Positions 1 through 19,297 of a DNA stretch of 64,000 nucleotides are shown here, piece by piece. Position numbers and translations under genes: made by a program. Source of the DNA: Ignavibacteria bacterium. GTDB lineage: Bacteria > Bacteroidota > Ignavibacteria > Tepidaquicellales > OLB5. Positions within the stretch are counted from its first letter, which is position 1, and each line of letters starts with the position of its first letter. The DNA is taken from NCBI GenBank assembly GCA_020852705.1, contig JADZAP010000001.1:62001-126000 (forward strand). The letters run 5' to 3'. The notes under the pieces are model-generated. The model was not told the DNA's origin. It saw only the letters and a program-made list of their open reading frames with translations, and ran no database searches.

Positions 1-44
1 GCTAACAAAAGCTAACATATAGTTGAAAGGAAACGAATAAAATT

Positions 45-227
45 ATGAATAATTGCAAAAAATGTAAATTCTGGAACAGGAAAAAAGTTATGAGGCCGGG
101 GGGATGCGGTATGTGTGAAAACAGGCATAGTGAAAATCATAAAATGGTAACTGGAATTAAATTTGAATGTCCGGATTTCAAAAAGGGAAATTTTAGTAAA
201 AAGTTCATTATCTTATTAACACAGTAG
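45..227 (+). CDS. small Cys-rich protein, 60 aa
   Basis: Unknown function. The protein has two CxxC pairs (C4/C7 and C21/C24) and a later Cys at 42 in the context FECPDF, with an aromatic KFW right after the first pair. This layout (CxxC-aromatic, a central Gly-Cys, and a final Cys-Pro-x-Phe) suggests a single metal-binding knuckle, zinc or possibly an Fe-S cluster. A purine-rich AAAGGA lies about 14 bases before the ATG, which is a rather long spacing. The basic tail has no recognisable feature. A second protein of similar design is encoded at 32533-32757. No neighbour hints at a role. Real expression is plausible but unproven. Confidence 0.5.
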   Translation: MNNCKKCKFWNRKKVMRPGGCGMCENRHSENHKMVTGIKFECPDFKKGNFSKKFIILLTQ

Positions 228-242
228 ATAATTTATAGTAAA

Positions 243-466
243 TTTTCTAAAAATAAGTATATTTATTTTAAGGCAGTTAGTAAATTCATTTTTTGTTTTG
301 AGAGTGTCGTATTTGGCTGGCTGATAAATATACCATTAATAAAATTAAAAAGGCTTTTAGGGGAAATTGATGAAATTGATTTCTTTGATGAACTACTAAT
401 TCCATAGGTTATTTGTAAAAGAATCATTGCAGCATTGCGCAACGAGATCAATGTGTGTTAGCAAAT
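243..466 (+). pseudogene. decayed protein-like reading frame
   Basis: One plus-strand frame stays open from 243 to a TAG at about 402, then continues about 20 codons to a second TAG at 464-466. The translation is protein-like, with mixed hydrophobic and acidic stretches such as LIKLKRLLGEIDEIDFFDEL, then after the stop KRIIAALRNEI. It has no plausible start codon. The opposite-strand frame here is Ser-rich, as expected of the antisense of an Asp/Glu-rich protein. I read this as a possible gene remnant of unknown origin. Confidence 0.22.
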
Positions 467-499
467 GAGTGAAGTAAATAATGTCGATTTTTCAGAATA

Positions 500-1357
500 T
501 TAACGATATGTCCGGTTGACATTAAAAGTGATTTCTACATTGCTAATCTTTTGGTAGATATCCGGTTTAGTCTGAAGATTATCTTTATAATAATAAACTC
601 CTTCATTTTTAATCAAGTCATTTGCCTTAATTCTTACTTTTTCAAGTGAATAACCGCTTATATCAACAAAAATTATATCGATATTTGTTTCATCAGCACT
701 TCTACCAAAATATTTATTATATATTTCGATATTAAAGTATAATCGATTATTTTCAAATTTTATTTTAGCATTATAATTTGTTCTTTTGAATTCCCTTTCT
801 TTTAAAATTTCTTCATTAATTTTATCTTTGACAAAAAATGATGTTAAATAACCCCTGTTAAAATACACTAAAGTTGAGAGTGATAAGACAAAAATTAATG
901 TTATAAGGATAACCAAATCTTTACGCAATAAAGAATTAAAAATATTAATTTTCTGCAGGAAAGAGATTTTATCAGATTTATGCATATTAGTTGATAGGTT
1001 TAAAGGTATACTTTTTGATAACTTATTTTCTAATTTTTCAATACTAACTTTGTTAGGTTGATAACTAATTTCTTCCTTATTTTCGATTTGTACTTTATCT
1101 ATAATTTCTTTTTTTGCCGTTATTGTATTATTAGAAAATCCGAAAAAAACACCAAGTGAAATCATAAAAGTCAAAAAACCTGTTTTAGTTGGGTCCTTAA
1201 ATATTGCTGTTAATATAAGCAACGATATAATGCCAATAATAAAAGTAGAAGCTAATCTTAAACCATTAGAATGCATTCTATCGTTATACTCCAAAGCAGA
1301 TTTCGTGAAAAACCTTGTAAGCAAGAATACTAATATGCCAATAATTACGATTGCCAT
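500..1357 (-). CDS. hypothetical membrane protein, 285 aa
   Basis: I do not recognise the family. Hydrophobic segments suitable for membrane spans lie at about residues 2-17, 35-53, 60-75 and 147-165. A polar Lys/Glu-rich linker (about 80-145) separates the first three from the fourth. The last 110 residues are soluble, mixed charged and probably beta-rich, so a C-terminal domain would sit on one face of the membrane. There is no clear ribosome binding site ahead of the ATG, which is common in this window. It stands alone, with about 200 AT-rich bases on its upstream side that include a tandem AAGTATTTTCT repeat. Base composition is as AT-rich as the rest. Function unknown. Confidence 0.6.
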   Translation of the reverse strand: MAIVIIGILVFLLTRFFTKSALEYNDRMHSNGLRLASTFIIGIISLLILTAIFKDPTKTGFLTFMISLGVFFGFSNNTITAKKEIIDKVQIENKEEISYQPNKVSIEKLENKLSKSIPLNLSTNMHKSDKISFLQKINIFNSLLRKDLVILITLIFVLSLSTLVYFNRGYLTSFFVKDKINEEILKEREFKRTNYNAKIKFENNRLYFNIEIYNKYFGRSADETNIDIIFVDISGYSLEKVRIKANDLIKNEGVYYYKDNLQTKPDIYQKISNVEITFNVNRTYR

Positions 1358-1564
1358 AATAAAATTATTCCATTATTCTTTACGTAAAGCAATAGATTTG
1401 TTATTATAAGTATTTTCTAAGTATTTTCTAAGTTCAAAATTACTACAAATTATTTACTAATACAGTACTATTTAAACTAAAATCGTTTAGGTTGTACTGA
1501 TTAGCATATTGGTAGAAGCTATATAAAACATATGATCAATGAAAATAGTAATTCATAAAAGATA

Positions 1565-1768
1565 TCATTTGCAATCGATATTCCTGAAATAATACAAACT
1601 TGGAATTTTGTATTTTTTAGCTAAATAACTATATTTCTCAGTATTACTTTTGAAAACATGATCAGCTTCAAATGCTGGTGTATCGACTTTTGAAAGGCAG
1701 GAATTAAAGATAAAAGCAGAAATGAGTAAAGATAAAAGAGCTTTCAAAGTAGTTAAATTTAAGTTCAA
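1565..1768 (-). CDS. small putative lipoprotein, 67 aa
   Basis: The first 23 residues form a hydrophobic signal ending at Cys24 (context IFNSC), a relaxed lipobox of the kind seen in Bacteroidota, followed by a short polar region of about 43 residues. The start is TTG and overlaps the stop of the upstream 71-residue lipoprotein by three bases (TTGA), so the two are probably translated together. No domain is recognisable. The protein is very short and could be the remnant of something longer; I cannot tell. Confidence 0.4.
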   Translation of the reverse strand: MNLNLTTLKALLSLLISAFIFNSCLSKVDTPAFEADHVFKSNTEKYSYLAKKYKIPSLYYFRNIDCK

Positions 1769-1980
1769 TACGGACGCATATAAGTAAATGTTTTATACGA
1801 AGGTGCAAAAGCAGGTTCGCCTGAAGGAAAACAATCATATATCTGTACACCATGTTTAAGATAAAGGATATCAATTTGTCCTTTAGCATAAGGATAATAA
1901 ACTATTGCTTTCTGGGACTGTTCAATTGAGCAAGAAATAGAAATAAAAGCAATAAAGATCACAAATAGAATAACTTTCAT
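1765..1980 (-). CDS. small putative lipoprotein, 71 aa
   Basis: Residues 1-16 are a strong hydrophobic signal (MKVILFVIFIAFISIS), followed directly by Cys17, the likely lipidation site. The mature part is about 54 residues, rich in Tyr and Pro, with a second Cys near residue 50. No family is recognised. It is the first gene of a two-gene unit with the 67-residue lipoprotein, linked by an overlapping stop/start. The ATG has no obvious Shine-Dalgarno. Likely attached to a membrane, role unknown. Confidence 0.5.
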   Translation of the reverse strand: MKVILFVIFIAFISISCSIEQSQKAIVYYPYAKGQIDILYLKHGVQIYDCFPSGEPAFAPSYKTFTYMRPY

Positions 1981-2194
1981 AATAATTAGATTAAACGTTA
2001 CTCAAAAATACTGTAGTCACCTGGTTTTGTAAATAGACGTAAATACCCAATTAACTTGAGTAATTCTACTCAATATAAGATCTGAATCCAGACGTAAAAA
2101 ATTATGTTATATTTACTTCTACATCAATATGTAGAGAAGTAGATTATCAAGTGATCACGTAGGAATTTAAGCACAGAATTTTAGCTGCAAATGA

Positions 2195-2382
2195 ATTTTG
2201 CGTCTGTTTGAAGCACGGTGGCGCAATTAGCGCCGGCCTTTAGCCAATAAGTATGAGAATGTAGCACGTGAGCGAAGTGAGAAGTCGGAATGAACGCTCG
2301 AATTGGCTGCCTGCTTTCTGCAGGCGGTCTTTACCGTGCAAGTTTCGCAAAAGAAAGGCAGATAAAATTTGAAGCGCAAAAT
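2195..2382. other. candidate structured element (multi-helix ncRNA or recombination site)
   Basis: Nested perfect inverted repeats define a branched fold. P1 pairs GCACGGT (2213-2219) with ACCGTGC (2333-2339). P2 is GGCGC/GCGCC (2220-2224/2230-2234), starting on the base after P1. P3 pairs AGCCAAT (2242-2248) with ATTGGCT (2302-2308), enclosing P4 GAGCG/CGCTC (2270-2274/2295-2299). P5 is GCCTGC/GCAGGC (2309-2314/2320-2325), starting on the base after P3. An outer ATTTTGCG (2195-2202) can pair with CGCAAAAT (2375-2382) or with CGCAAAA (2346-2352). Helices abut without gaps at two junctions, as in real RNA junctions. Strand and function are unknown; a folded single-stranded recombination site is an alternative. 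Confidence 0.45.
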
Positions 2383-2524
2383 ATCTTATAGATACTTAAT
2401 GCTTATAAAAAAGGGGACAAATGGCTTCTATCTATTTTGAAAATGAAACTTGGCAGGGTCGCAAGGGCGGGAATAAATAAAAAAGCGAACGAAGTGAGCG
2501 CGGGCGCATGGCTCTTGTAAAAAT

Positions 2525-2543
2525 GTTAAGGTTTGTTAAGGTT
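2525..2543. repeat. tandem direct repeat GTTAAGGTT x2
   Basis: Two exact copies of GTTAAGGTT separated by one T, giving a 10-base period. It lies in the noncoding stretch downstream of the minus-strand propeller gene. Function unknown. Confidence 0.5.
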
Positions 2544-2595
2544 CAAAGCCCACAATTGCGTGTTCGGTGATGTCACAACGCGTTATTTGTTGAAA

Positions 2596-3534
2596 CTAAT
2601 TTTGATAAGGTCCGTAGGTAAGTTTTCTTTTTTTTACCATCTTGCTTGAACCTGCGAATAGAAAACCGTTGTCAATCCAAAAACTATAAACATCTAAACC
2701 ATGAGGATCATCATAGTATTCACTGCCGATACTTTCACCATATTCGTCTAAAACACATATTCCTTTATTGCGAGTAGCTGCAAAAACATAACAATTGTTA
2801 AATGCAAAGGAATATATTTCTGAATTTTCATCAAAGTTAGATTTATACCATTTTTTACCTATATTAGGAGAATAATAAATACCATGTTTTGCTGTACCTG
2901 CATAAATAAAATTACCATTTATAGCCAAAATATTAATACCATAAGTACCAATATCAATATCTACATTTCCCCAGGTATCTCCATTAGTAGAAGATTTCAT
3001 AATGCCAGGGTCCTCAGTTGCTGCAAAAATAAATAGTTCATTTTTTATCAAAGATCTTACACCATGTTTGCCAATAATACTTGTATTATCAAAACTGGCA
3101 CCATAGTTTGTTGATTTTATAATACCACCTTTACTGCCTAAACCAGCGAAAACAATATTATTTTTTATCAATAAAGTGTTTACAGATTTATTCAGTAAAG
3201 TGTTAATCCAATTTAAACCAGAATTTGTCGTTCGCCAAATGCCATAAGTTTTTGTACCCGCTATTATAATGTTATCAATTACAACTATAGAAGTTATGCT
3301 TTTTTCATCCAATTCTTCCATTGAAATCTTTTCCCAGTCTGAAGTATTTATGGGAGCTCTAAAAATGCCATTACCTTGAGTACCAACAAAGTTAAATTCA
3401 TTGTTCGCAGCTACTGACTGGACTACATAATTACTGATAATTGAGGAATCATCAACCCATTGCGAATCTATTGTATTCATGAAACTGGAAAATATAACGA
3501 AAATTGACAACCAGAAAATATTGGTATATTTCAT
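2596..3534 (-). CDS. secreted beta-propeller protein, 312 aa
   Basis: A signal peptide (about residues 1-24, ending near NTIDSQ) is followed by six or seven repeats of about 40 residues. Each carries a pattern like GxxGIxRTTNSGxxW, with NSGLNW, NYGASF and NGDTW at the turn; this is the Asp-box/BNR turn of sortilin- or sialidase-like propellers. Such proteins usually bind ligands at the cell surface. Unlike most secreted propellers in this window it lacks the NYPNPFNP sorting domain and ends in a short basic tail (KKRKLTYGPYQN). It is therefore either periplasmic or cut short at its 3' end, next to the unusual noncoding stretch at 1981-2595. No catalytic residues are evident. Confidence 0.7.
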   Translation of the reverse strand: MKYTNIFWLSIFVIFSSFMNTIDSQWVDDSSIISNYVVQSVAANNEFNFVGTQGNGIFRAPINTSDWEKISMEELDEKSITSIVVIDNIIIAGTKTYGIWRTTNSGLNWINTLLNKSVNTLLIKNNIVFAGLGSKGGIIKSTNYGASFDNTSIIGKHGVRSLIKNELFIFAATEDPGIMKSSTNGDTWGNVDIDIGTYGINILAINGNFIYAGTAKHGIYYSPNIGKKWYKSNFDENSEIYSFAFNNCYVFAATRNKGICVLDEYGESIGSEYYDDPHGLDVYSFWIDNGFLFAGSSKMVKKRKLTYGPYQN

Positions 3535-3638
3535 AGTTTTATTTAAAATTTATCAGATTTTCTATTAAATCAGACTGTTTTGTTACCCATTTGTTACTCA
3601 ACAAAAACTTAATATGTAAAATACAATAATTTGACTTG

Positions 3639-4343
3639 CTATTGAGGGTTAGTTGCCCACACTCCTGCCTCTGGAATAAATCCTCGGTCATCAAGCTCAA
3701 GCATTGATTTAATTAAATGTGCTATGTGAAATCCTTCTAACTTGGTTTTATTAAATTCCCTTTTTTTGCCTCCGGCATTTATATTGAAATTTGTCTGTAC
3801 TTCACTTGGATTTACAAGCATAACCCTGATATTATTTTTCCTCAGCTCTGCTCTCCAGCATTCAGTCATACCCCGTAAAGCAAATTTTGTAGCACAATAT
3901 GGGCTGCCGTTTGCAAATCCATTCTTTCCCGCACTCGAGGCAATATTTATTATATTACCGTAATTTTTTTCAGTGAAATATTTTGCTGATTCTCTGCCGC
4001 ATATCATTGCACCCGTGATATTTGTCATAAGCACATCATTAAATTTTTTGGTTTCAATCTGTGTTAACTGACTGAAATATCCGTATGCAGCATTATTTAT
4101 TAAAACATTAAATCCGCCAAGTTTATCTATTGTATATTTTACAAGATTTTTTGCATCACTTTCAATAGAAACATCTGCTATAAACGATATCGCCCCAAGT
4201 TCAGTAGCGGCTTTATTTAATCTTGCTTCATCTCTTGAGCAAATTACAACTTTTGCACCGCATTCAACAAGTAATTTTGCAGTTGAATATCCAATTCCAA
4301 TACTGCTGCCTGTTATTAATACTTTTGCCTCATTTAAATCCAT
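3639..4343 (-). CDS. short-chain dehydrogenase/reductase, 234 aa
   Basis: Classical SDR fold for NAD(P)-dependent oxidation or reduction of an alcohol/ketone. Visible signatures are TGSSIGIG at residues 11-18 (cofactor-binding glycine motif), NNAA at 83-86, a catalytic Ser at 136/137 (NIASSAG), and Tyr149-x3-Lys153 (YCATK). Ser36-Arg37 after the second strand suggests NADPH preference, which is an inference. The length is normal for the family. A good Shine-Dalgarno (AGGGGAG) sits eight bases before the ATG. It is divergent from the alpha/beta hydrolase gene. Substrate cannot be told; two more SDRs occur at 11987 and 12810. Confidence 0.9.
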   Translation of the reverse strand: MDLNEAKVLITGSSIGIGYSTAKLLVECGAKVVICSRDEARLNKAATELGAISFIADVSIESDAKNLVKYTIDKLGGFNVLINNAAYGYFSQLTQIETKKFNDVLMTNITGAMICGRESAKYFTEKNYGNIINIASSAGKNGFANGSPYCATKFALRGMTECWRAELRKNNIRVMLVNPSEVQTNFNINAGGKKREFNKTKLEGFHIAHLIKSMLELDDRGFIPEAGVWATNPQ

Positions 4344-5381: not shown

Positions 5382-6749
5382 TTATAAAATACCGTAAGAA
5401 AGCATTGCATTTGCAACTTTTATAAACCCGCCTATATTTGCTCCTGTTAAATAATCACCTTTCGCTCCATATGCTTCTGCATTATCAAGGCATGTTTTAT
5501 GAATGCTCTTCATTATTCCAAGAAGTTTGGCATCAACTTCTTCTCTGCTCCACATTAAACGCATACTGTTCTGGCTCATTTCCAACCCTGAAACTGCTAC
5601 GCCACCTGCGTTTGCTGCTTTTGCAGGTCCAAATAAAATTCCGTTATTCTGAAAAATTTTAATTGCCTCAGGGTTACTTGGCATATTTGCACCTTCTGAA
5701 ACACAATAACAGCCTGCCGTAACCAAACCTTGTGCAGTTGCTTCGTTAAGCTCATTTTGAGTTGAACAGGGTAAAGCAATATCAACTTTTATTCCTTCAT
5801 CCTTTATCACTTCCCATACACTTTTGCCTTCATAATATTTTACTTTATGTTCTTGAGCGTATTCTTTTATTCTTCCTCTGCGGTTATTCTTAAGCTCCAG
5901 CAAATATGCAAGTTTTCTTGTATCTATCCCTGATTCATCTATTATTGTACCATTTGAATCTGATGCTGTTATAGGTATTCCGCCAAGCTGATTTACTTTT
6001 TCAATTGCATACTGCGAAACATTTCCCGAGCCGCTTATAGCAACTCTCTTTCCGCTGAAATCATTTCCTCTTGTTGCAAGCATTTCAGCTGCAAAATAAA
6101 CAGTACCGTATCCGGTAGCTTCAGGTCTTATTAAACTTCCTCCGTATTCAAGTCCCTTGCCGGTTAAAACACCTGTATGCTCATTTACTATTTTTTTGTA
6201 GTAACCGTATAAGTAACCAATTTCCCTTCCTCCAACACCAATATCACCGGCGGGCACATCTCTGTTGGGACCTATATGCCTGTATAATTCTCTCATAAAT
6301 GAATAGCAGAATCTCATAACCTCATCATCTGATTTTCCTTTAGGGTCAAAATCACTTCCGCCTTTACCTCCGCCCATTGGCAATGTGGTTAAAGCATTTT
6401 TAAAGATCTGTTCAAATCCAAGAAATTTTAGTATCCCCAAATTTACTGAAGGATGAAACCTTAATCCGCCTTTATACGGTCCAATTGCATTATTAAATTC
6501 AACCCTGAAACCTCGGTTTACCTGAACCTCTCCTGTATCATCCACCCATGGTACTCGGAACAATATGGCTCTGTCTGGAATCACAATTCGTTCATAAATT
6601 TTTGCTTTAACAAATTCAGGATGTTTTGCTACGGTGGGTTCTAAGGTTGTTAGTACTTCTTCTACTGCTTGATGAAATTCCGGTTGTGCTGTTTCTTTGG
6701 TTTTAACTATATCTATTACGTCTTTTATTACTGATGACGATTTTGCCAT
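5382..6749 (-). CDS. gdhA: NADP-type glutamate dehydrogenase
   Basis: Reversible reductive amination of 2-oxoglutarate with ammonium to L-glutamate, linking nitrogen and carbon metabolism in the cytoplasm. At 455 residues it matches the hexameric small (about 450 aa) family. Landmarks are GPYKGGLRFHP (about 90-100, substrate binding), LPMGGGKGGSDFDPKG (about 123-138, with the catalytic Lys), PAGDIGVGGREIGY (about 166-179, with the catalytic Asp), the nucleotide-binding GSGNVSQYA (about 240) and a C-terminal GANIGGF. A Shine-Dalgarno AAAGGAG precedes the ATG. It is a single-gene unit with its own terminator. NADP preference is inferred from similarity to the bacterial anabolic type. Confidence 0.96.
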   Translation of the reverse strand: MAKSSSVIKDVIDIVKTKETAQPEFHQAVEEVLTTLEPTVAKHPEFVKAKIYERIVIPDRAILFRVPWVDDTGEVQVNRGFRVEFNNAIGPYKGGLRFHPSVNLGILKFLGFEQIFKNALTTLPMGGGKGGSDFDPKGKSDDEVMRFCYSFMRELYRHIGPNRDVPAGDIGVGGREIGYLYGYYKKIVNEHTGVLTGKGLEYGGSLIRPEATGYGTVYFAAEMLATRGNDFSGKRVAISGSGNVSQYAIEKVNQLGGIPITASDSNGTIIDESGIDTRKLAYLLELKNNRRGRIKEYAQEHKVKYYEGKSVWEVIKDEGIKVDIALPCSTQNELNEATAQGLVTAGCYCVSEGANMPSNPEAIKIFQNNGILFGPAKAANAGGVAVSGLEMSQNSMRLMWSREEVDAKLLGIMKSIHKTCLDNAEAYGAKGDYLTGANIGGFIKVANAMLSYGIL

Positions 6750-6968: not shown

Positions 6969-7889
6969 ATGAAAATTAAGAAATTTACATGTATAAATTG
7001 CGGGGCTCCAAAGGTAAACGAATATAAATCACCCTATATTATGTGTGACTATTGCGGTTCTTTTACTGATATTGACTTCACACTTGGACTTGATAAATGG
7101 AATGAATCGGGAATTAAAACTATGAATTATCAGATGACCAAAATGGCGCTTATGAACAAAATGCAAACAGCTTTACAGCGCGGAAACAAAGATGAATACA
7201 AAAGTCTTCAGAGGGATTACTGGGATTATTACTACCGTACATATCCCGCTTATCTGCCTCCTTCTATTGATGATGGCTATAAGTATCGCGACTACCTTGA
7301 TGTTTGTGCTGAGTCCAGCACAGAATACGGCTTTGATCCCAAATGGCAGAATTACGGAACTGAACAGCAAAGATTACAGCAGTCCCTTGCATATTATAAT
7401 GATGGCACAGGCAACAAAGTTGAAAGCACCAGATTTTTCCATTTGGCAGATTTTTTTATCAACATGACAAAAGACGGCATGAGGGTTTTTTATTCAAATC
7501 CAAAGTACGCCGTAATGAATGACCTTATTCCTGAACAGGTTCACATGAAAATGAAGCTTTCAATGTTTGTGCAGGTCTGGCTGCCGTATTTAACCGAAGC
7601 TGACCAGGAAAAATTACTTAAAATGTCCGGATTTAGTTTACAGTATGTTGATATTGAGCGTCCCAAAGGCAGAACAGGTGAATGTGAACATTGCAAAGCT
7701 GAAATTTATATTCCCGAGGGTTCTTATAAAGTGCATTGCGAAAGCTGCCATAAAAATACTAAGGTTCAGCAGGCATTTAATTGCATGTCCTGCGGTGCGG
7801 AAAATAAAGTACCCGATTTCCCGGCAAAACCAATTGATTGCGAATTCTGCGGTGTGGAAAACCGTCTTATTCAAAGATTATTTGGGTAA
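6969..7889 (+). CDS. zinc-ribbon protein of unknown function, 306 aa
   Basis: Three CxxC-based zinc ribbons frame a helical middle. The N-terminal one is CINC (8-11) with CDYC (26-29). At the C-terminus CEHC pairs with CESC and CMSC pairs with CEFC within the last 80 residues. The central 200 residues are rich in Tyr, Lys and Glu and have no signature I recognise. There is no signal peptide or membrane segment, so it is likely cytoplasmic. The double ribbon at the end suggests nucleic-acid or protein binding, but nothing in the sequence proves it. It stands alone between gdhA (divergent) and the aldehyde dehydrogenase gene (convergent). Confidence 0.75.
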   Translation: MKIKKFTCINCGAPKVNEYKSPYIMCDYCGSFTDIDFTLGLDKWNESGIKTMNYQMTKMALMNKMQTALQRGNKDEYKSLQRDYWDYYYRTYPAYLPPSIDDGYKYRDYLDVCAESSTEYGFDPKWQNYGTEQQRLQQSLAYYNDGTGNKVESTRFFHLADFFINMTKDGMRVFYSNPKYAVMNDLIPEQVHMKMKLSMFVQVWLPYLTEADQEKLLKMSGFSLQYVDIERPKGRTGECEHCKAEIYIPEGSYKVHCESCHKNTKVQQAFNCMSCGAENKVPDFPAKPIDCEFCGVENRLIQRLFG

Positions 7890-9635: not shown

Positions 9636-10163
9636 TTAAAGCTCTTTAGAATCGTTTGATTTTTTCATTTTATCACCCGGGCATTTGCTTTTATCTTCGC
9701 ATCCGTTTTTGTTATTGCCTGATTTAACTCCGTCTTTATCACATCCGGATTTTGTTGAACAGTCATAACTGTTATCTTTTATGTATTTTGCAATTGCCTC
9801 TTCATTAGTTTCGCCTGCAGCATATTTTACTGTTACATTTGTCATTTTTGATACATTGCATGTTGAACTAAAGTTAACTTCCTTTACACCGGAAAATGAA
9901 AGCAAATTCTTTTGCAGATCCGATTTCATTTCTTCACAGCAGGCTTTATCTGTGGTGAATTCATAATTTGAATAATCTCCGCCTGCTTTAATGCTTTTTT
10001 TATTATCACAATCTTTTTTTACATTTGAAGTTTTCTCGGTGCATTCACTGCTGCAATTCTTGCCGTCTTTATCATTTGCTATTAAATATGACTGATTAAG
10101 ATACAGAAATGTAACTGCAAATATTACAACCAAAGCTGCTGCCGCAATTATTTTTTTATTCAT
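9636..10163 (-). CDS. secreted/anchored HMA-like Cys-rich protein, 175 aa
   Basis: An N-terminal hydrophobic segment (about 4-22) acts as signal peptide or anchor. Residues of about 66-135 have the length and hydrophobic pattern of a heavy-metal-associated ferredoxin-like domain: a strand ending at TTDKACCEEM, a helix, then LLSFSGVKEVNF, as in the GVxxVxV strand of HMA domains, and TNVTVKYAAG. The Cys pair sits where HMA domains put their metal ligands. Both flanks are Cys- and Lys-rich (CSSEC, CDKDG, CEDKSKCPGDK). A periplasmic metal-binding or detoxification role is likely but inferred. Alternative: a structural Cys-rich protein. It is a single-gene unit with a strong terminator. Confidence 0.7.
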   Translation of the reverse strand: MNKKIIAAAALVVIFAVTFLYLNQSYLIANDKDGKNCSSECTEKTSNVKKDCDNKKSIKAGGDYSNYEFTTDKACCEEMKSDLQKNLLSFSGVKEVNFSSTCNVSKMTNVTVKYAAGETNEEAIAKYIKDNSYDCSTKSGCDKDGVKSGNNKNGCEDKSKCPGDKMKKSNDSKEL

Positions 10164-10362
10164 GGTGCATCCCTATTATTTTTATTAAAATTAATTCAGC
10201 AAAGATATTAATTTTTTGCCGTTTATCCAAGTAAGTTAAAAATTTAAATTTCGTAAACTATAGTAAAACCAAATCTTAATCATACTATTTATATTCAATT
10301 ATAGCTATTTTTGTAAAGAAATATATGCAGCTGAAAAATATTGGGCAAAGGATTAAAAATTA

Positions 10363-11943
10363 ATGAAAGAATTAAAATTCAGAAAAGAAAAATTTGTTAC
10401 ATCCTCAGGTATTGAAATTCCCCCTTTCATTGAAAAAAATTCTGATGAATATAAATCAAAATTAAATAACCCGGGGCAGTATCCATATACTCGCGGTGTA
10501 CATGAACAAATGTATCGCAGCAGATTTTGGACTATGAGGCAATATGCAGGTTTTGGAAATGCCGAAGAATCTAACAAACGGTATAAATTCCTGCTTCAGC
10601 AGGGGACAACCGGTTTAAGCATTGCTTTTGATTTGCCAACACAAATCGGCTATGATAGCGACGAAGCAGCCGCAGATGGTGAAATTGGCAAAGTTGGCGT
10701 TGCAATTGATACTTTAAAAGATATGGAGATACTTTTTGAGGGAATTTCTCTTGAAAAAATAAGTACATCAATGACAATTAACTCAACAGCAGCTGTGTTG
10801 CTTTGTATGTACGTTGCGATTGCAAAAAAACAGGGTGCTGACCTTCAAAAAATTTCAGGTACAATTCAAAATGATGTACTAAAAGAATATATAGCTCGCG
10901 GAACATTTATCTATCCGCCAAAACACTCTATGAGACTTATTACCGATATTTTTGCATGGTGTAATAAAAATCTGCCTGCATGGAATACAATTTCAATTAG
11001 CGGTTACCATATCCGCGAAGCCGGAAGTAATGCTGTTCAGGAAGTTGCATTTACTTTGGCAAATGCAATTGCATACATTCAGTCTGCAATAAACGCCGGA
11101 CTTGATGTAGATGAATTTGCTTCAAGACTTTCATTTTTCTTTAATGGCCAGATAAACCTGCTTGAAGAAGTTGCAAAATACCGAGCAGCACGCAGAATTT
11201 ATGCTAAAATAATGAAAGAGCGTTTTAATGCAAAAAGCAGTAAAAGCATGATGCTCCGTTTTCACTGTCAAACTGCCGGTTCATCACTTACAGCACAGCA
11301 GGTTGAAAATAATGTTGTTAGAACAACCATTGAAGCTTTAGCAGCAGTGTTTGGCGGATGCCAGTCACTGCATACAAATTCTAAAGATGAAGCTCTTGCT
11401 TTGCCTACTGAAGATTCTGTTACTACCGCTTTAAGAACTCAGCAGGTTATTGCGTATGAAAGCGGAATTGCAGATACCGTTGATGCCTTTGCAGGTTCAT
11501 ATTATATTGAGTATCTTACAGATGAAATTGAAAAAGGCGTTTGGGAATATTTAAATAAAATTGAAGAATTGGGCGGGGCTGTTAAATGCATTGAACTTAA
11601 TTTTCAGCAGGATGAAATTGCAAACAGTGCTTATGAGTTTGAAAAAGAAATTGAATCGCAACAGCGCATTATTGTTGGTGTTAACAAATTTGCCGATGAA
11701 TCACAGCAGGAAAAAATTGAACTGCTGCATATAGATGAAGAAATTGGTAAAAAGCAGATTGAAAAACTAAAAGAAATTAAAGCTGCCAGAAATAATGATG
11801 AAGTTATAATAAACCTTACTGAATTAAAAAAAGCAGCTGAAGGCACCGATAACATGATTCCGTATATTCTTAAATGTGTTGAAAGTTACTGCTCAATTGG
11901 TGAGATTTCAAATACGCTCCGCACTGTTTGGGGCGAATATTAA
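10363..11943 (+). CDS. methylmalonyl-CoA mutase large (coenzyme A-binding) subunit
   Basis: Interconverts methylmalonyl-CoA and succinyl-CoA with adenosylcobalamin. At 526 residues it contains only the TIM-barrel domain; the B12-binding DxHxxG domain is missing and no small subunit gene is near, so its partner must be encoded elsewhere. By counting from the GYH motif, Tyr61 (RQYAGFG), Arg179 (ARGTFIYPP) and His216 (SGYH) match Tyr89, Arg207 and His244 of the Propionibacterium enzyme, and Met50, Arg54 and Thr57 match its CoA-tunnel residues. Isobutyryl-CoA mutases carry Phe and Gln in place of the Tyr and Arg, so methylmalonyl-CoA is the likely substrate. The next gene, 43 bases on, is an SDR. 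Confidence 0.93.
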
Positions 11944-11986
11944 TGTAATACAATTTTAATCTGAAATTTAAATAAAAATATTTTTT

Positions 11987-12694
11987 ATGAATCGTGTCGT
12001 TTGGATAACAGGAGCTTCTACAGGTATTGGATTTGAGCTTGCAAAGGTATTTGCCAAATCCGGATATGTTATTGTTGCTACAGCTAGAAGGAAATCAAGG
12101 CTTGTTAGTCTTGTAAACGAAATACGCTTTGCCGGACATGAAGCTTATGCTTTTGTATGCGATATTCGCTCTGAACGGAGTATTGTAAGTACAAAAAAGA
12201 AGATTTTGGAAAAGTGCGGAACTATTGATATTCTTATCAATAATGCTGCTATAACTGCATTCAAATCATTTACTGATACCAAACCGGCTGAATTTGATGA
12301 TATAATAAAAACTAACCTTAGAGGCAGCTATCTTACAAGCAGATCAATTCTGCCTGTTTTTATCAAAAAAAAACGGGGGCATATTATAAATATTCTATCA
12401 GTAGCCGCCAAAACTGTTTTTAAAAACAGCTCTGCCTATGCTGCTTCTAAAGCGGGAATGCTTGCAATGTTTAATGTACTAAGGGCTGAATTGAGAAAAT
12501 ATAATATAAAAATTTCTAATGTAATGCCCGGGGCTACCGATACCCCAATGTGGAGCAGCACCACTCGCCAAAAAAATTCTTCCAGAATGATGACACCAAA
12601 AGAGATTGCAGAAATTGTTTTTACTATTGCAAACCAGCCCAAAAAGGTTGTTATTGAAGATATTGTGATCAAACCTGTTAAAGGTGATCTGTAA
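11987..12694 (+). CDS. short-chain dehydrogenase/reductase, 235 aa
   Basis: Classical SDR: TGASTGIG near residues 8-15, NNAA near 85, catalytic Ser in INILSVAAK, and YAASK (Tyr-x3-Lys) near 148-152. Arg after the second strand (TARRKSR) suggests NADPH use. It follows the mutase gene by 43 bases on the same strand with no terminator between, and precedes another SDR by about 115 bases, so the three may be co-transcribed. The two SDRs are clearly different in sequence, not a recent duplication. Substrate unknown. Confidence 0.88.
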   Translation: MNRVVWITGASTGIGFELAKVFAKSGYVIVATARRKSRLVSLVNEIRFAGHEAYAFVCDIRSERSIVSTKKKILEKCGTIDILINNAAITAFKSFTDTKPAEFDDIIKTNLRGSYLTSRSILPVFIKKKRGHIINILSVAAKTVFKNSSAYAASKAGMLAMFNVLRAELRKYNIKISNVMPGATDTPMWSSTTRQKNSSRMMTPKEIAEIVFTIANQPKKVVIEDIVIKPVKGDL

Positions 12695-12809
12695 TTTTTT
12701 AATATTATTATGATTTTGTTATTACTGTAAAACCCCGATTCTTTTTTTATAAATTTAACTTTATAAATCTGTTATATTACACAAGTTCAAATTAATATTT
12801 TAAATTTCT

Positions 12810-13535
12810 ATGAAACTTCAAAATAAAACAGCAATTATTACCGGTGCGGGTAAAGGTATTGGGAAAGCTGCAGCTGAGCTATTTCTTAAAGAAGGCGCAA
12901 AGGTTATTTTAAATTCGCGAAGCAAAACAGAGCTTGAGCAGATTATCAGCGAAAATAAAAATCTACGGGGAAATATAGCTGTAGTTCCAGGCGATATTTC
13001 CAAAGAAGATACCATAAATAAAGTTACTGATGAAGCCATTTCTAAATTTGGCGGAATAGATATTCTTGTTAATAATGCCGGCTTTGGTAAGTTCGGAAAT
13101 TTAGTTGATTCTAAAACAGAAGATTTTGATGCTGTTTTTAATACCAACGTTAAGGCATTATACATTATGACAAAAAAAGTTCTGCCTTACATGATAAAAC
13201 AAAAATCAGGTACAATAATCAATATTGCTTCTATTGCAGGAAAAGTTGGAATTGCATCAGGCAGTATATATTGCGCAAGCAAACATGCTGTTATGGGCTT
13301 AAGCAGAGCATTAATGCTGGAAGTAAGAAAGTATAATATCAGAGTAATTGCAATTTGCCCCGGCAGTGTTGCTACTGATTTTTTCAGACCTGAGTCTATG
13401 ACAGAAATTGGCTGGAAAAAGGAAACTGTTCTGCAGGCAAATGATATTGCGGAATCTATTCTTCTTGCAGCTTCGCTGCCGGAATCTGCAACAATAAGTG
13501 AAATTGAATTAAGACCTACAAACCCGAGTAAATAA
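12810..13535 (+). CDS. short-chain dehydrogenase, 3-oxoacyl-ACP reductase-like, 241 aa
   Basis: SDR with TGAGKGIG (residues 11-18), NNAG (88-91), catalytic Ser in NIASIAGK and YCASK (Tyr-x3-Lys, about 152-156). NSRSK after the second strand is compatible with NADPH. The TGAGKGIG/NNAG combination is usual for FabG-type 3-oxoacyl reductases, but many SDRs with other substrates share it, so FabG itself is not claimed. About 115 bases separate it from the preceding SDR gene. A ribosome binding site is not obvious. Confidence 0.88.
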   Translation: MKLQNKTAIITGAGKGIGKAAAELFLKEGAKVILNSRSKTELEQIISENKNLRGNIAVVPGDISKEDTINKVTDEAISKFGGIDILVNNAGFGKFGNLVDSKTEDFDAVFNTNVKALYIMTKKVLPYMIKQKSGTIINIASIAGKVGIASGSIYCASKHAVMGLSRALMLEVRKYNIRVIAICPGSVATDFFRPESMTEIGWKKETVLQANDIAESILLAASLPESATISEIELRPTNPSK

Positions 13536-13569
13536 AATCTGCATTTCCCTGAAAATTAAAACCCAAGAA

Positions 13570-13648
13570 AGTTATATTTAGTTATAGAATGTTTAAAAAA
13601 AAAGCCACTTGCATTCTATAACAATTAGTTATATATTAGTTATAGAAT
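13570..13648 (+). promoter_or_regulatory. repeated GTTATAGAAT operator-like sites
   Basis: Three copies of GTTATAGAAT lie just before the HTH-GHKL gene: forward at 13581-13590, inverted at 13613-13622 and forward at 13639-13648. The first two form an 11-base perfect inverted repeat (GTTATAGAATG/CATTCTATAAC). The forward copies sit within a longer direct repeat, AGTTATAT(A)TTAGTTATAGAAT, at 13570-13590 and 13627-13648. The last copy ends about 20 bases before the start codon, where a bound repressor would block transcription or translation. Autoregulation by the gene's own HTH is an inference. Confidence 0.5.
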
Positions 13649-13667
13649 AATTGAAAATAATTATAAA

Positions 13668-14717
13668 ATGCAATCTATAACTAAAAATAGCGATATTTCC
13701 TCCATAATTCTTAAATATGTTAGTGAAAAACAGATATTTAAGATTAAAGATATTGTAAAAGTTACAGGCCTATCGCAGCCATACATCAACAGAATTGTAA
13801 ATATACTCATCGAAAACGGTTTATTGGTAAAATCAGGCAATGGTAAAAATACAATTTACACTAAACCGGGATATAATTTATCTAAAGATACCGATAAAAT
13901 AAAACTGCGTTTTATTAATAAAGGTCTTTCAGAAAGTGATGTTCTTGAGGATATTAACAGAAGAACTTCAATTTTTAATTCTTCAAAAAAAAATGTTCAA
14001 TCAATAGCTGAATATGCTTTTAATGAAATGCTCAATAATGCAATTGAACACTCTAACGGAGAAAATATCACAATTTCCGCAGAAAGAGCAAACGGGATAA
14101 TTAGATTTGATATTACAGATAACGGTATAGGTATATTTAATAATCTTGCAAAAAAGTTTAAGCTGAAAAATGAAATCGAAGCAGTACAGGAGCTCTTAAA
14201 AGGCAAGAAAACAACATTTCCTGCGGCTCATTCCGGTGAAGGGATATTCTTCACTTCCAAAGCATCTGATACTTTTATTATTCAAAGCTCCGGTAAAAAA
14301 TTATTTGTAAATAATCTGATAAATGACTTAATCTTAACCAACTCAAAAGTGAACACAGGCACAAAAGTTACATTTACGTTATCTGAAAAATCAGTTAAAG
14401 AATTAAATAAAATATTTGATGAATATACTGATGAAGACTTTGAATTCAATAAAACTAAAATTCATGTAAAGCTATATAAGCATGGTACTGAATACCTTTC
14501 ACGCTCACAAGCCCGGAGAATATTAGCAGGGCTGGAGAAGTTTAAATTCATCTTACTTGATTTTAAGGATGTAATAGAAGCAGGGCAGGCATTTTCTGAT
14601 GAAATTTTCAGAGTATTTAAAAATTCCAACCCCGATAAAAAAATAGAATATATTAATGCAAATGATAATGTAGAATTTATGATAAAACGGGCATTAGCTA
14701 ATGATATTTGGAAATAA
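13668..14717 (+). CDS. HTH - GHKL ATPase - STAS-like (DUF4325) regulator, 349 aa
   Basis: Three parts in order. A winged-helix HTH (about 10-65; SQPYINRIVNILIENGLL is the recognition region). A GHKL/HATPase domain with N-box NEMLNNAIEHS (119-129), DNGIGI (151-156) and a GEG loop (190-192), resembling anti-sigma or histidine-kinase ATP domains but with no phospho-accepting His. A C-terminal STAS-like domain (about 260-345, LLDFKDVIEAGQAFSDEIFR) of the DUF4325 kind. It likely binds DNA and switches state with ATP, by analogy with SpoIIAB/SpoIIAA partner switching placed in one chain. It is coupled to the PLD gene: its stop lies five bases before that gene's likely start. Confidence 0.82.
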   Translation: MQSITKNSDISSIILKYVSEKQIFKIKDIVKVTGLSQPYINRIVNILIENGLLVKSGNGKNTIYTKPGYNLSKDTDKIKLRFINKGLSESDVLEDINRRTSIFNSSKKNVQSIAEYAFNEMLNNAIEHSNGENITISAERANGIIRFDITDNGIGIFNNLAKKFKLKNEIEAVQELLKGKKTTFPAAHSGEGIFFTSKASDTFIIQSSGKKLFVNNLINDLILTNSKVNTGTKVTFTLSEKSVKELNKIFDEYTDEDFEFNKTKIHVKLYKHGTEYLSRSQARRILAGLEKFKFILLDFKDVIEAGQAFSDEIFRVFKNSNPDKKIEYINANDNVEFMIKRALANDIWK

Positions 14718-14721
14718 TATT

Positions 14722-15927
14722 TTGAAAAAACTGATTTTTGTATTCGTACTGTTTTTTTTCACCTCCGTCTATTCACAAAATAGTATTGAACTTGTTGAAA
14801 GCATCCCAATAGAAACAACTCTTGATAACCCCGATATTAAAAATACGCAGGAAGTATGGCTTGAGATGATTAATTCAGCACAAAAAACCCTTGATATTGA
14901 ACAATTCTATATATCAAATGAAAAGGGTGAACCGCTTGATACAATTTTAAATGCAATTGTAGCAGCAGCAAAAAGGGGAGTAACAGTTAGAATAATCATT
15001 GATGCCGGTATGTACAAAACATATCCTGAAAGCGCAGATGAATTTGATAAATTTGATAACATTGAAGTCCGCGAAATTGATGTAAAAAGTCTCGCTGGCG
15101 GAATTCAGCATGCCAAATATTTTATTGTTGATAGTAAAGAAGTTTTTCTTGGCTCGCAGAATTTTGACTGGCGGGCACTTAATCATATTCATGAACTTGG
15201 CGTCAGAATTAAATCAGATATTTATATTCCATTCCAAAATATATTTGAACTTGATTGGAGATATGCCGGCAGTAAAGATAATGTAAAATGGATCTCTGAT
15301 ACTACTTCAATTTTAGCAGTAAATAAAAAACGATCTCAAATATTCTCTGATTTATTTGGTACAATTTATCCCAAAGCTGTATTTAGTCCGCATGGTTTTA
15401 TTATACAGAATATTTATTCAAATTGGGACCTTAATTCAATTTTAAAAATGATTTATGATGCTAAATCAGAAATTAACCTTCAGTTTCTTTCTTACAATCC
15501 CGTTACAAAAGATGGGTACTGGGAAGAAATTGATACAGCTCTTATCAATGCATCAAAAAGGGGAGTGAAGGTTAAGTTAATTGTTTCTGACTGGAACTTA
15601 GGCAAAACCGCTGTTGAACATTTTAAAGAACTTATCCATTTCCCCAATTTTGAGATAAAGTACACATCTATTCCTGATTATTCAGGCGGATACATTCCTT
15701 TTGCCCGGGTTGAGCATTGTAAATTTATATCAGCTGACTCCGTTTGCTGGATTGGCACTAGCAACATGAGTTATGATTATTTTTATGAATCACGTAATGC
15801 AGGTGTTGTTATTGAAAACGGCAAATTTACTCAAAGGGTAAGAGATATTTTTTACAAAAGCTGGAGAAGTGAATATGCTCACCGGATAGAACCTAATGGC
15901 GAATACATACCACGTAAGAGAAACTAA
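14722..15927 (+). CDS. secreted phospholipase D superfamily protein, PLD3/4-like
   Basis: Two HxKx4D catalytic motifs, His130/Lys132/Asp137 (HAKYFIVD) and about His332/Lys334/Asp339 (HCKFISAD), each followed by a GSxN/GTSN motif. The stretch GSQNFDWRAL...HELGV is the style of the PLD3/PLD4/poxvirus K4 family rather than of cardiolipin synthases. The signal peptide starts MKKLIFVFVLFFF and ends near TSVYSQ, so it acts outside the cytoplasm. The frame opens with an ATG at 14701, but the TTG at 14722 gives a proper signal peptide, with GGAA eight bases before it. Activity may be phosphodiesterase, transphosphatidylase or 5' exonuclease; not decidable here. Confidence 0.85.
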   Translation: MKKLIFVFVLFFFTSVYSQNSIELVESIPIETTLDNPDIKNTQEVWLEMINSAQKTLDIEQFYISNEKGEPLDTILNAIVAAAKRGVTVRIIIDAGMYKTYPESADEFDKFDNIEVREIDVKSLAGGIQHAKYFIVDSKEVFLGSQNFDWRALNHIHELGVRIKSDIYIPFQNIFELDWRYAGSKDNVKWISDTTSILAVNKKRSQIFSDLFGTIYPKAVFSPHGFIIQNIYSNWDLNSILKMIYDAKSEINLQFLSYNPVTKDGYWEEIDTALINASKRGVKVKLIVSDWNLGKTAVEHFKELIHFPNFEIKYTSIPDYSGGYIPFARVEHCKFISADSVCWIGTSNMSYDYFYESRNAGVVIENGKFTQRVRDIFYKSWRSEYAHRIEPNGEYIPRKRN

Positions 15928-16017
15928 ATATCTTTAAAGAATCCTGCTTTTATATTAAAGCCAAGCCCATGCTTTGATAAAAATTTGAATTTATTTATTT
16001 AATTAATTGTAAATTAA

Positions 16018-16043
16018 AAAGCCCCGAATTTCTTCGGGGCTTT
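16018..16043. terminator. bidirectional terminator (pld / groEL)
   Basis: AAAGCCCCGAA/TTCGGGGCTTT stem with a four-base loop, A-run on the left and T-run on the right. It lies between the convergent PLD and groEL genes and can serve both. Confidence 0.85.
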
Positions 16044-16090
16044 AATTGCTAATAGCTCATTACTAATTATTAATTGAATTACTAATTGAA

Positions 16091-17740
<1,650 letters not shown>

Positions 17741-17773
17741 TTATATCTCCTTTTACTATTTTATTTTTATTTA

Positions 17774-18061
17774 CTATCCTATCACAGCGTAAACATCGCT
17801 TTCGCGCATTATTAAATATTCTTCATCATTTACCTTAACTTCAGTGCCGCTGTATTTTCCGTAAAGTACATTATCACCGACTTTTAAATCCATTGCAACT
17901 TTTTTGCCTGTATCATCGGTTTTGCCATTGCCAACTGCTACAACTTTACCTTCCATTGGTTTTTCCTGTGCTGTATCAGGTAAAATTATACCGCCTTTGG
18001 TTTTTTCTTCAGGAGCTTTCGGTTTTACTATTACCCTGTCTCCAAGTGGTTTTAAATTCAT
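17774..18061 (-). CDS. groS: co-chaperonin GroES
   Basis: Heptameric lid of GroEL, 95 residues, the usual size. The mobile loop is [18 protein letters not shown] (about 18-35); [10 protein letters not shown] at the start and [11 protein letters not shown] near 67-77 are standard. A strong AGGAGG Shine-Dalgarno precedes the ATG. It is first in the groESL operon, with CIRCE about 55 bases upstream of the start codon, so heat-inducible repression by HrcA is expected; hrcA itself is not in this window. Confidence 0.98.
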
Positions 18062-18115
18062 TATTAACCCTCCTAATTTATTGATATTTATATAATTATA
18101 ATTTTTAGAAATGTA

Positions 18116-18142
18116 TTAGCACTCAGATTATATGAGTGCTAA
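18116..18142 (-). promoter_or_regulatory. CIRCE operator (HrcA site)
   Basis: Exact match to the consensus: TTAGCACTC, nine bases, GAGTGCTAA. Its position upstream of groES implies repression by HrcA released on heat shock. Confidence 0.97.
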
Positions 18143-18169
18143 TATAATGTAATTAAATTTTTTAATCAA
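18141..18169 (-). promoter_or_regulatory. groESL promoter (-35 TTGATT, -10 TATATT)
   Basis: On the minus strand TTGATT (18169-18164) and TATATT (18146-18141) are 17 bases apart. The -10 box overlaps the upstream edge of CIRCE by two bases, so bound HrcA would cover the start point. The form is that of a vegetative sigma-70-type promoter. Confidence 0.6.
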
Positions 18170-18265
18170 TAGTTCCAATTTTACCTAAAAATCTGGTATT
18201 ATTGAATTACAAAATCAGCATTTTATGATTATATTTAAATAACCACACTAACAACTGGAGGTGGA

Positions 18266-19249
18266 ATGAAATACCTTCTATACATTTTACTCGGATTTAC
18301 TCTTACCGGCAGATTAATGGATATTTATGCATGGGATTCAACTGCGGCAAAATATATGCCGCTTCAAGTTGGAAACCAATGGGTATACATGGGTTCGGCT
18401 CATGCATATATTCAGAACGGAAGGTCATACACTGTTTATAAAATTACAGGAACTGCCGATACACTTGGTCACCATTATTACAGGATTGAAACTAGGGTTT
18501 ACATGATAAGCGGTACTATCAGCTCAGGGGTTATGCAATTTTCAAACATGGTAAGGATAGATTCCTTATCAATGAATTTTAAAAAGCTTTGGTTTTATTG
18601 TAATGTTAATGAAACCTCAATTGACAGCTTAAGCTCAAAAAAAACGGATTCATTAAAAATTTGTCCGCAGCAGTTTTATACATCAAGCAGTTATTGTTAT
18701 GATACATCAGCATATTCAATTTTTGGTGTTAGTTATCCGTCAAAAACATTTCATGAATTCTTTGGGCCGGGATATAGTACAATATATGTAAAAGGTATTG
18801 GTATAGTTTTCAGCAGCTATGGTTATCAAATGAACCAATCTACGGATACATTAATAGGCTGCGTTATAAACGGAGTTGTTATTGGTGATACTTCAATTCT
18901 GGTAGGCTTACAACAGATCAATTCAGAAATTCCTGAACGATTAGTGCTTTCCCAAAACTATCCCAACCCCTTCAACCCGGTTACAAAAATAAAATTTCAA
19001 ATTCCCCTCTTAAGAGGGGTGAATGCCGAAGGTGGACGGGGTGTGTTTACTAATCTCACAATCTACGATGCCCTCGGCAAAGAAGCTGCCGTTTTACTTA
19101 ACCAACAACTACAACCCGGCACTTACGAAGCTGACTGGGATGCATCAAATTATCCAAGCGGCATTTATTATTATCAGATATCAATCCATTCAGGTAAACT
19201 TGAAACTGAAAACTATACTGAAACCAAAAAAATGGTTTTAATAAAATAG
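18266..19249 (+). CDS. secreted protein with T9SS sorting domain, 327 aa
   Basis: A signal peptide is followed by about 215 residues of unknown fold, Ser/Tyr/Thr-rich and beta-like (WVYMGSAHAYIQNG, KNGRS-type turns). The last roughly 100 residues are the T9SS sorting domain: SQNYPNPFNPVTKIKFQIP, then LTIYDALGKE, LQPGTYEADWDA, YPSGIYYYQI and KKMVLIK. It should be exported across the outer membrane and attached to or shed from the surface. An extra peptide of about 14 residues (LLRGVNAEGGRGVF), absent from other sorting domains here, is encoded by a palindromic element (see 19004). The final 318 bases nearly duplicate the end of the next gene. A GGAGGT Shine-Dalgarno precedes the ATG. Confidence 0.82.
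   Translation: MKYLLYILLGFTLTGRLMDIYAWDSTAAKYMPLQVGNQWVYMGSAHAYIQNGRSYTVYKITGTADTLGHHYYRIETRVYMISGTISSGVMQFSNMVRIDSLSMNFKKLWFYCNVNETSIDSLSSKKTDSLKICPQQFYTSSSYCYDTSAYSIFGVSYPSKTFHEFFGPGYSTIYVKGIGIVFSSYGYQMNQSTDTLIGCVINGVVIGDTSILVGLQQINSEIPERLVLSQNYPNPFNPVTKIKFQIPLLRGVNAEGGRGVFTNLTIYDALGKEAAVLLNQQLQPGTYEADWDASNYPSGIYYYQISIHSGKLETENYTETKKMVLIK
19004..19045. repeat. palindromic element inserted in frame in a T9SS domain (copy 1)
   Basis: A perfect 16-base palindrome CCCCTCTTAAGAGGGG (19004-19019), followed by TGAATGCCGAAGGTGGACGG and GGTGTG. It adds the peptide LLRGVNAEGGRGV between the first two strands of the sorting domain without breaking the frame. Palindrome arms resemble the intergenic repeats at 8048 and 32283. 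Confidence 0.7.
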
Positions 19250-19297
19250 GAAACAATAATTCAAAATGAATTATTTTTAATACCATTTGGAGGAATT

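Follow-up and report, generated by a model that had tools for sequence, protein, structure and literature searches.

We found that a patch of predicted helices at positions 2195-2382 of a 64,000-nucleotide stretch of Ignavibacteria DNA (the window) is the 5' domain, and less than half, of a conserved element that is noncoding and about 400 nt long. The element occupies approximately positions 2173-2590 of the + strand, both ends being approximate, and was delimited by homology with three further copies. The four copies lie in three genomes of one Ignavibacteria family: one in the window, one in G010, which belongs to the window's own genus, and two in G013, which belongs to another genus and carries them as paralogues on C12 and C48. 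The element does not encode protein, its 5' domain is closed by a covarying helix that we call P1, and it is carried by integrative islands. We favor, at roughly even confidence, the explanation that the islands encode it as a structured RNA serving their mobility or maintenance, and we infer that it is transcribed and read from the + strand.

In blastn searches of the window against 197 relatives, G013 matched positions ~2430-2567 with E values of 1.1e-13 and 4.6e-12; of the 24 rows returned, the short ones were set aside except for a 29-nt 5' piece lying in line with the C48 copy. The G010 copy was found through the G013 sequence, in a blastn search with the C12 copy that gave seven rows, three of them (26-30 nt) set aside. 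Searching with the G010 copy gave 26 rows, of which 23 (22-51 nt) were set aside, and did not recover the window copy. The two G013 paralogues are 82% identical over 436 alignment columns and have unrelated flanks. The earlier note had proposed building a covariance model from homologs and scanning with it. Among 391 genomes of the class, such a model of the element's 3' part (R1) found four places, in three genomes; over 395 genomes of the phylum it found only the window genome's own copy. With laxer filters in 39 relatives, R1 gave 30 rows, and the 26 at E 0.2-9.9 were discarded, 8 after their alignments showed no conserved blocks and 18 without inspection. An exact gapped pattern, which was built from the known copies and is therefore biased, as the R1 scans also are, toward near copies, matched three loci in 84,980 genomes: two in Chlorobiota bacterium PMV_1.34 and one in Ignavibacteria bacterium BIN7, which are the known G013 and G010 copies.

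Comparison with described RNA families gave no identity. Among 4227 Rfam models, including those of large noncoding RNAs, only two tRNAs reached the gathering cut-off in the window; around the element, four weak matches at E values up to 5 were far below their cut-offs, and loci L043 and L044 gave one tRNA only. No Ignavibacteria island RNA was named in the titles returned by a literature search. The element, unmatched in Rfam, is probably a new family within a known kind. No match to the window stretch turned up in blastn searches of phages and plasmids. The C12 copy had nothing there beyond 28-47 nt matches with E values of 0.03 or higher, and a 3' piece of the C48 copy had none in plasmids.

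Aligning the four copies resolved six common blocks, A1 to A6, with intervening stretches that differ in length and sequence. All features given here are on the + strand. The arms of P1, identified from the energies of the arm duplexes and, for the 3' arm, also from pairing in a fixed register, lie at 2176-2188 and 2358-2370, so that the domain runs from 2176 to 2370 (195 nt) and P1 encloses 169 nt in the window copy. Inside P1, a second helix, P2, joins TTTTGCG (2196-2202), within block A1 (GARTTTNCGNCTGTYYRAA type, 2193-2212), to CGCAAAA (2346-2352), within block A2 (GTTTCGCAAAAGAAA, 2342-2356). P2 is present in three copies; the G010 version includes one compensated pair and one mismatch. 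Inside P2 lies a variable region, P3 (2213-2339), which is much longer in the window copy than in the other three and there folds into a stem (2213-2219 with 2333-2339) bearing hairpins at 2220-2234, 2270-2299, and 2305-2329. The linker contains block A3 (ATGCTTWTA, 2399-2407) and leads to the 3' domain, in which block A4 (GGCWGGG...CGCAAGGGYGGGAATA..AAAA, 2452-2482) includes stretches invariant in all four copies. A 19-nt insertion found only in the window copy (2483-2501), with the palindrome-like motif GCGAACGAAGTGAGCG, is followed by block A5 (GGGCGYATKGCTYTTG, 2502-2517), which folds as a short hairpin, and by block A6 (AAAGCCCACWATTNGCGTGTT, 2545-2564). A terminal hairpin at 2562-2589 has a different sequence in each copy.

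The noncoding status and unusual composition reported for the patch in the earlier note were both borne out. The sole open reading frame of at least 40 amino acids inside 2195-2382 lies on the minus strand (2227-2379), is 50 amino acids long, and matches no Pfam family above the cut-off, and the conserved 3' block has single-base insertions and deletions between copies. The GC content rises from 0.20-0.32 in the bins before position 2200 to 0.455 at 2201-2400.

Next, we compared folding with that of shuffled sequences. The helices described earlier are present. RNAfold of 2195-2382 gave -63 kcal/mol, with a z score of -2.25 against dinucleotide shuffles, the comparison that the note had suggested (2 of 200 as good). 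The reverse strand gave a z score of -2.66, again with 2 of 200 shuffles as good; both strands fold equally well, and energy alone therefore cannot name the strand. Over the whole 5' domain the window copy had a z score of -2.15 (3 of 200 shuffles as good), the G013 copies -1.39 and -1.44, and the G010 copy -5.17, with similar values on the minus strand. A 396-nt stretch of the window copy showed no excess folding (z score of +0.31, 58 of 100 shuffles as good), and the other full-length scores were -1.07 for C48 and -2.58 for C12. Thus, the folding signal of the window element sits in its 5' domain. The 3' domain (2452-2564) gave z scores of +0.45, +1.63, +0.70, and -0.46 over the four copies, none beyond shuffles, and it is the element's best-conserved sequence; its lack of excess folding is as compatible with a DNA or protein site as with an RNA. 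The 5'-domain folds contained 14 G-T pairs on the + strand versus 5 on the minus strand, summed over the four copies, a difference in favor of the + strand. Promoter- and terminator-like sites were at shuffle level in all four.

The evidence for a kept structure comes from P1. Its arms differ in sequence between lineages yet pair inside each copy, at -14.1 kcal/mol in the window, -12.4 in C48, -12.0 in C12, and -10.0 in G010. When arms were swapped between lineages (n = 10), the duplexes reached -2.4 to -8.1 kcal/mol; swaps between the near-identical G013 copies gave -11.5 and -12.4, as expected. Mononucleotide shuffles did as well in 1, 1, 3, and 8 cases per 1000. With the arms held in a single register, 37 of 44 cells pair, compared with a mean of 27.0 over 24 dealings of the arms and with 18 to 23 cells when the register was slid by one to four columns, and 8 of the 11 pairs have changed on both sides. 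In the window copy, only 6 of the 11 pairs form in this register, and its full helix requires a bulge. Since two of the four copies are paralogous, this covariation rests on three lineages, across which P1 is a helix of the kind by which structured noncoding RNAs are recognized. Minimum-energy folds computed independently for the copies also show the P1-P2 layout, most clearly in G010. A further outer helix that had been proposed to enclose the patch (2195-2202 with 2375-2382) did not hold up: its 3' strand is missing in the relatives, and its 5' strand pairs instead in P2, enclosed by P1.

To place the element in its genomic setting, we examined the DNA around each copy. Three of the four copies sit in tyrosine-recombinase integrative islands with defined ends. 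One is in G010, whose contig is colinear with those of G008, G012, and G004 except for an insert at 9946-19499. The insert ends in a 15-bp repeat, ATTAATTCAATTGAG, at 9946 and 19485; this sequence occurs once in G004 and, minus its last base, once in G008, which is the empty site. A 17-bp repeat lies near both ends. An integrase gene (18249-19331) and a gene for an HTH_17 protein are at one end of the insert, and the element is at the other. Adjoining the G010 element is a gene for a 213-amino-acid protein without a Pfam match, flanked by two minus-strand occurrences of TTATTGCGCCTTCA (L059, ~6495-6510 and ~7265-7280).

The window itself begins inside an island. As read from the sequence, this island would extend over C2:44677-65658 (~21 kb), and window positions 1-3645, with the element, form its right part, as judged from arm and core repeats. 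Its ends were found by comparison with G010, a k-mer search having given none. An arm-type repeat, GTTACYYATTTGTTAC, lies on the + strand at 3582-3597 and has its only other copies at C2:44797 and C2:44808, beside the integrase, making three occurrences in the 101.5 kb read. The right attachment core, GGGTTAGTTGCCC (3646-3658, + strand), lies within a short-chain dehydrogenase gene (3639-4343), at the gene's 3' end; its only other copy, matching at 12 of 13 positions, is at C2:44677, and GGGTTWGTTGCCC likewise occurs twice in the 101.5 kb, at C2:44677 and at window position 3646. The island integrase (C2:44857-45909) and the G010 integrase share 38% identity, and the two islands also have related HTH_17 and HNH proteins. 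The empty site of the window island is unreadable because none of 14 relatives has the neighboring hydrolase at E 1e-40. The island encodes a type I restriction system with R, S, and M genes, and its part of the window has small open reading frames at 45-227, 500-1357, 1565-1768, 1765-1980, and 2596-3534. This explains the patch of unrelated small genes noted earlier, which is the end of an integrative island.

On G013 C48, a tRNA-Val gene is followed by an integrase gene, and the last 50 bases of the tRNA recur at 5519, where there is no whole tRNA. The genes of the C48 island (L108, 9046-15243) include those for a DNA methylase, a PRTase-CE protein, an ORC-CDC6-like protein, and Thy1, a set that looks like a conflict or defense cassette. 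Around the C12 copy are two integrases, a HEPN protein, and a methylase-restriction fusion, with no sensible end repeats of at least 15 nt. The integrase nearest the C12 element is apparently split into frames of 319 and 52 amino acids (L061, 7945-9062), so this island may be decaying. Drawn as circles, the window and G010 islands would share one order and direction of element, attachment core, and integrase. The C48 element starts 28 nt after the integrase gene, as the other copies do not, and because its position relative to the integrase differs there, the element behaves as a unit of its own and not as an integrase-gene leader. The carriers belong to the integrative islands with a tyrosine recombinase and an HTH_17 excisionase-like protein. 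They resemble known integrative islands in having an integrase, direct-repeat ends, and targets in tRNAs or the 3' ends of genes, and they differ in having a noncoding element aboard. Pfam relaxases were absent from the subset of island open reading frames that was scanned, and PF03432, the one relaxase family covered in the genome scan, was absent from all 15 genomes of the bacterial family.

We asked what such an element might do. A closing P1 that covaries across ~170 nt in the window copy, the fixed sequences that it presents, and the variable decoration of the linker are features expected of such an RNA. In the proposed mechanism, the element would be transcribed from the + strand, and the covarying P1 would close a 5' domain that displays A1 and A2 as fixed sequences on either side of a variable stem. 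Next would come a flexible linker, its hairpins differing from copy to copy, and the sequence-conserved 3' domain, A4 to A6, could be a contact surface. The RNA might then serve island excision, replication, or transfer, much as sgm-sRNA does for SGI1. SGI1 transfer requires an sRNA whose gene lies beside oriT, and the SGI1 mobilization proteins, MpsA/MpsB, are tyrosine recombinases (PMC9299015). That sRNA and our element share the location on an integrative island and a conserved stretch beside island functions; they differ in that the former is known to be transcribed and needed for transfer, whereas the latter is a sequence-based candidate. GOLLD and ROOL (PMC12286853) are likewise long structured noncoding RNAs on mobile DNA. 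The element is about half the size of GOLLD and lies in integrative islands rather than in phage tRNA arrays, and it differs from both GOLLD and ROOL in having no Rfam match. The suggestion in the earlier note of a new structured RNA thus stands as a candidate, on the strength of its lack of an Rfam family, the covariation of P1, and conservation in four copies. Counting against it are promoter and terminator signals at shuffle level, the lack of excess folding in the 3' domain, equally strong folding of the minus strand, modest 5'-domain scores in the G013 copies, and the varying place of the element relative to the integrase.

In the main rival explanation, the element acts in cis as DNA: it would be an oriT, a replication origin, or a packaging site recognized by the proteins of a helper element, and its hairpins would form in single-stranded DNA or bind proteins. 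We regard this as unlikely, at perhaps half the probability of the RNA reading. It would account for a 3' half conserved in sequence without excess folding and for promoter and terminator signals no stronger than in shuffles, and islands with no relaxase of their own among the scanned frames could borrow a helper's. On the minus strand, A5 reads ATGCGCCC/ATACGCCC, which may resemble the MOB-Q nick region, a point for the DNA site. However, a P1 that covaries around 169 nt is unusual for a nick-site hairpin, the lack of PF03432 in the family's genomes speaks against a relaxase at hand as far as that single family goes, and plasmids and phages gave no significant match. A non-autonomous, MITE-like mobile element or relic hopping between islands would explain two paralogues with unrelated flanks in one genome and the presence of the element in only 3 of the 391 class genomes sampled. 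We consider this improbable, because no copy has a terminal inverted repeat beyond chance (145, 387, 189, and 374 per 500 shuffles as good), no target duplication is evident by eye, and P1 has been kept through covariation.

Still less probable is an ordinary spacer with REP-like palindromes that folds by chance. Its attractions are a z score of only about -2 for the patch, the full-length score of the window copy, and two GAAGTGAG-type motifs in that copy; conservation to another genus at the E values found in G013 and the covariation of P1 argue against it. The earlier note had also raised a folded recombination site of the attC kind. Integron attC sites carry the R boxes GTTRRRY and RYYYAAC. 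The element folds as a single strand and has unrelated small genes and tyrosine recombinases nearby, in keeping with attC sites, which are likewise folded elements beside tyrosine recombinases. But in none of the four copies, on either strand, is there a GTTRRRY/RYYYAAC pair 40-220 nt apart, and the window domain, at 195 nt, exceeds the 57-142 nt that PMC2727003 gives for attC. The best integron integrase match (TIGR02249) in the window genome scored 113.7 bits against a cut-off of 265, an absence that is not absolute in a genome 97.6% complete, and the likely attachment core of the island lies 1.1 kb from the element. We give this reading hardly any credence.

Visible transfer genes are missing from most integrative islands, whose mode of spread is an open question in the field. 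The islands with the element are otherwise different and carry defense-type genes: type I restriction in the window, a methylase with a restriction domain at C12, and the PRTase-CE/ORC-CDC6-like set at C48. A conserved, folded noncoding unit common to such different islands points to a shared, testable function that is not that of a protein. Should the element be an RNA, it would join the few examples of islands dependent on an RNA of their own; as a DNA site, it would indicate how helpers recognize these islands. More tentatively, and with only modest expectation of being right, we propose that it is the first known family of a large structured RNA (~400 nt) encoded by integrative islands of Ignavibacteria for moving or persisting, a second and unrelated case beside sgm-sRNA. 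Were this so, it would suggest that relaxase-less islands commonly rely on a large RNA.

In viral contigs, GGTTCAAAGCCCACAATT and two further patterns had no occurrence. A 17-mer from A4 occurred in five viral contigs that are unrelated over 400 nt on either side. The A6 pattern matched one GC-rich phage contig, L131, where R1 scored 12.5 bits (E 0.17); the 21-nt exact match (653-673) lies shortly after the end of a gene and 1.4 kb ahead of terminase-like genes, the contig has none of the element's other blocks, and blastn of the stretch in phages gave a single 24-nt match at E 4. The A1 pattern matched L132, inside a long phage open reading frame, and we took the L131 and L132 matches to be chance. 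Finally, the palindrome-like 20-mer around GCGAACGAAGTGAGCG (window 2484-2503) recurs in two genomes of the same genus, at G002:C13:131376-137225, partly with 48-base spacing, and at G012:C21:46901-52503.
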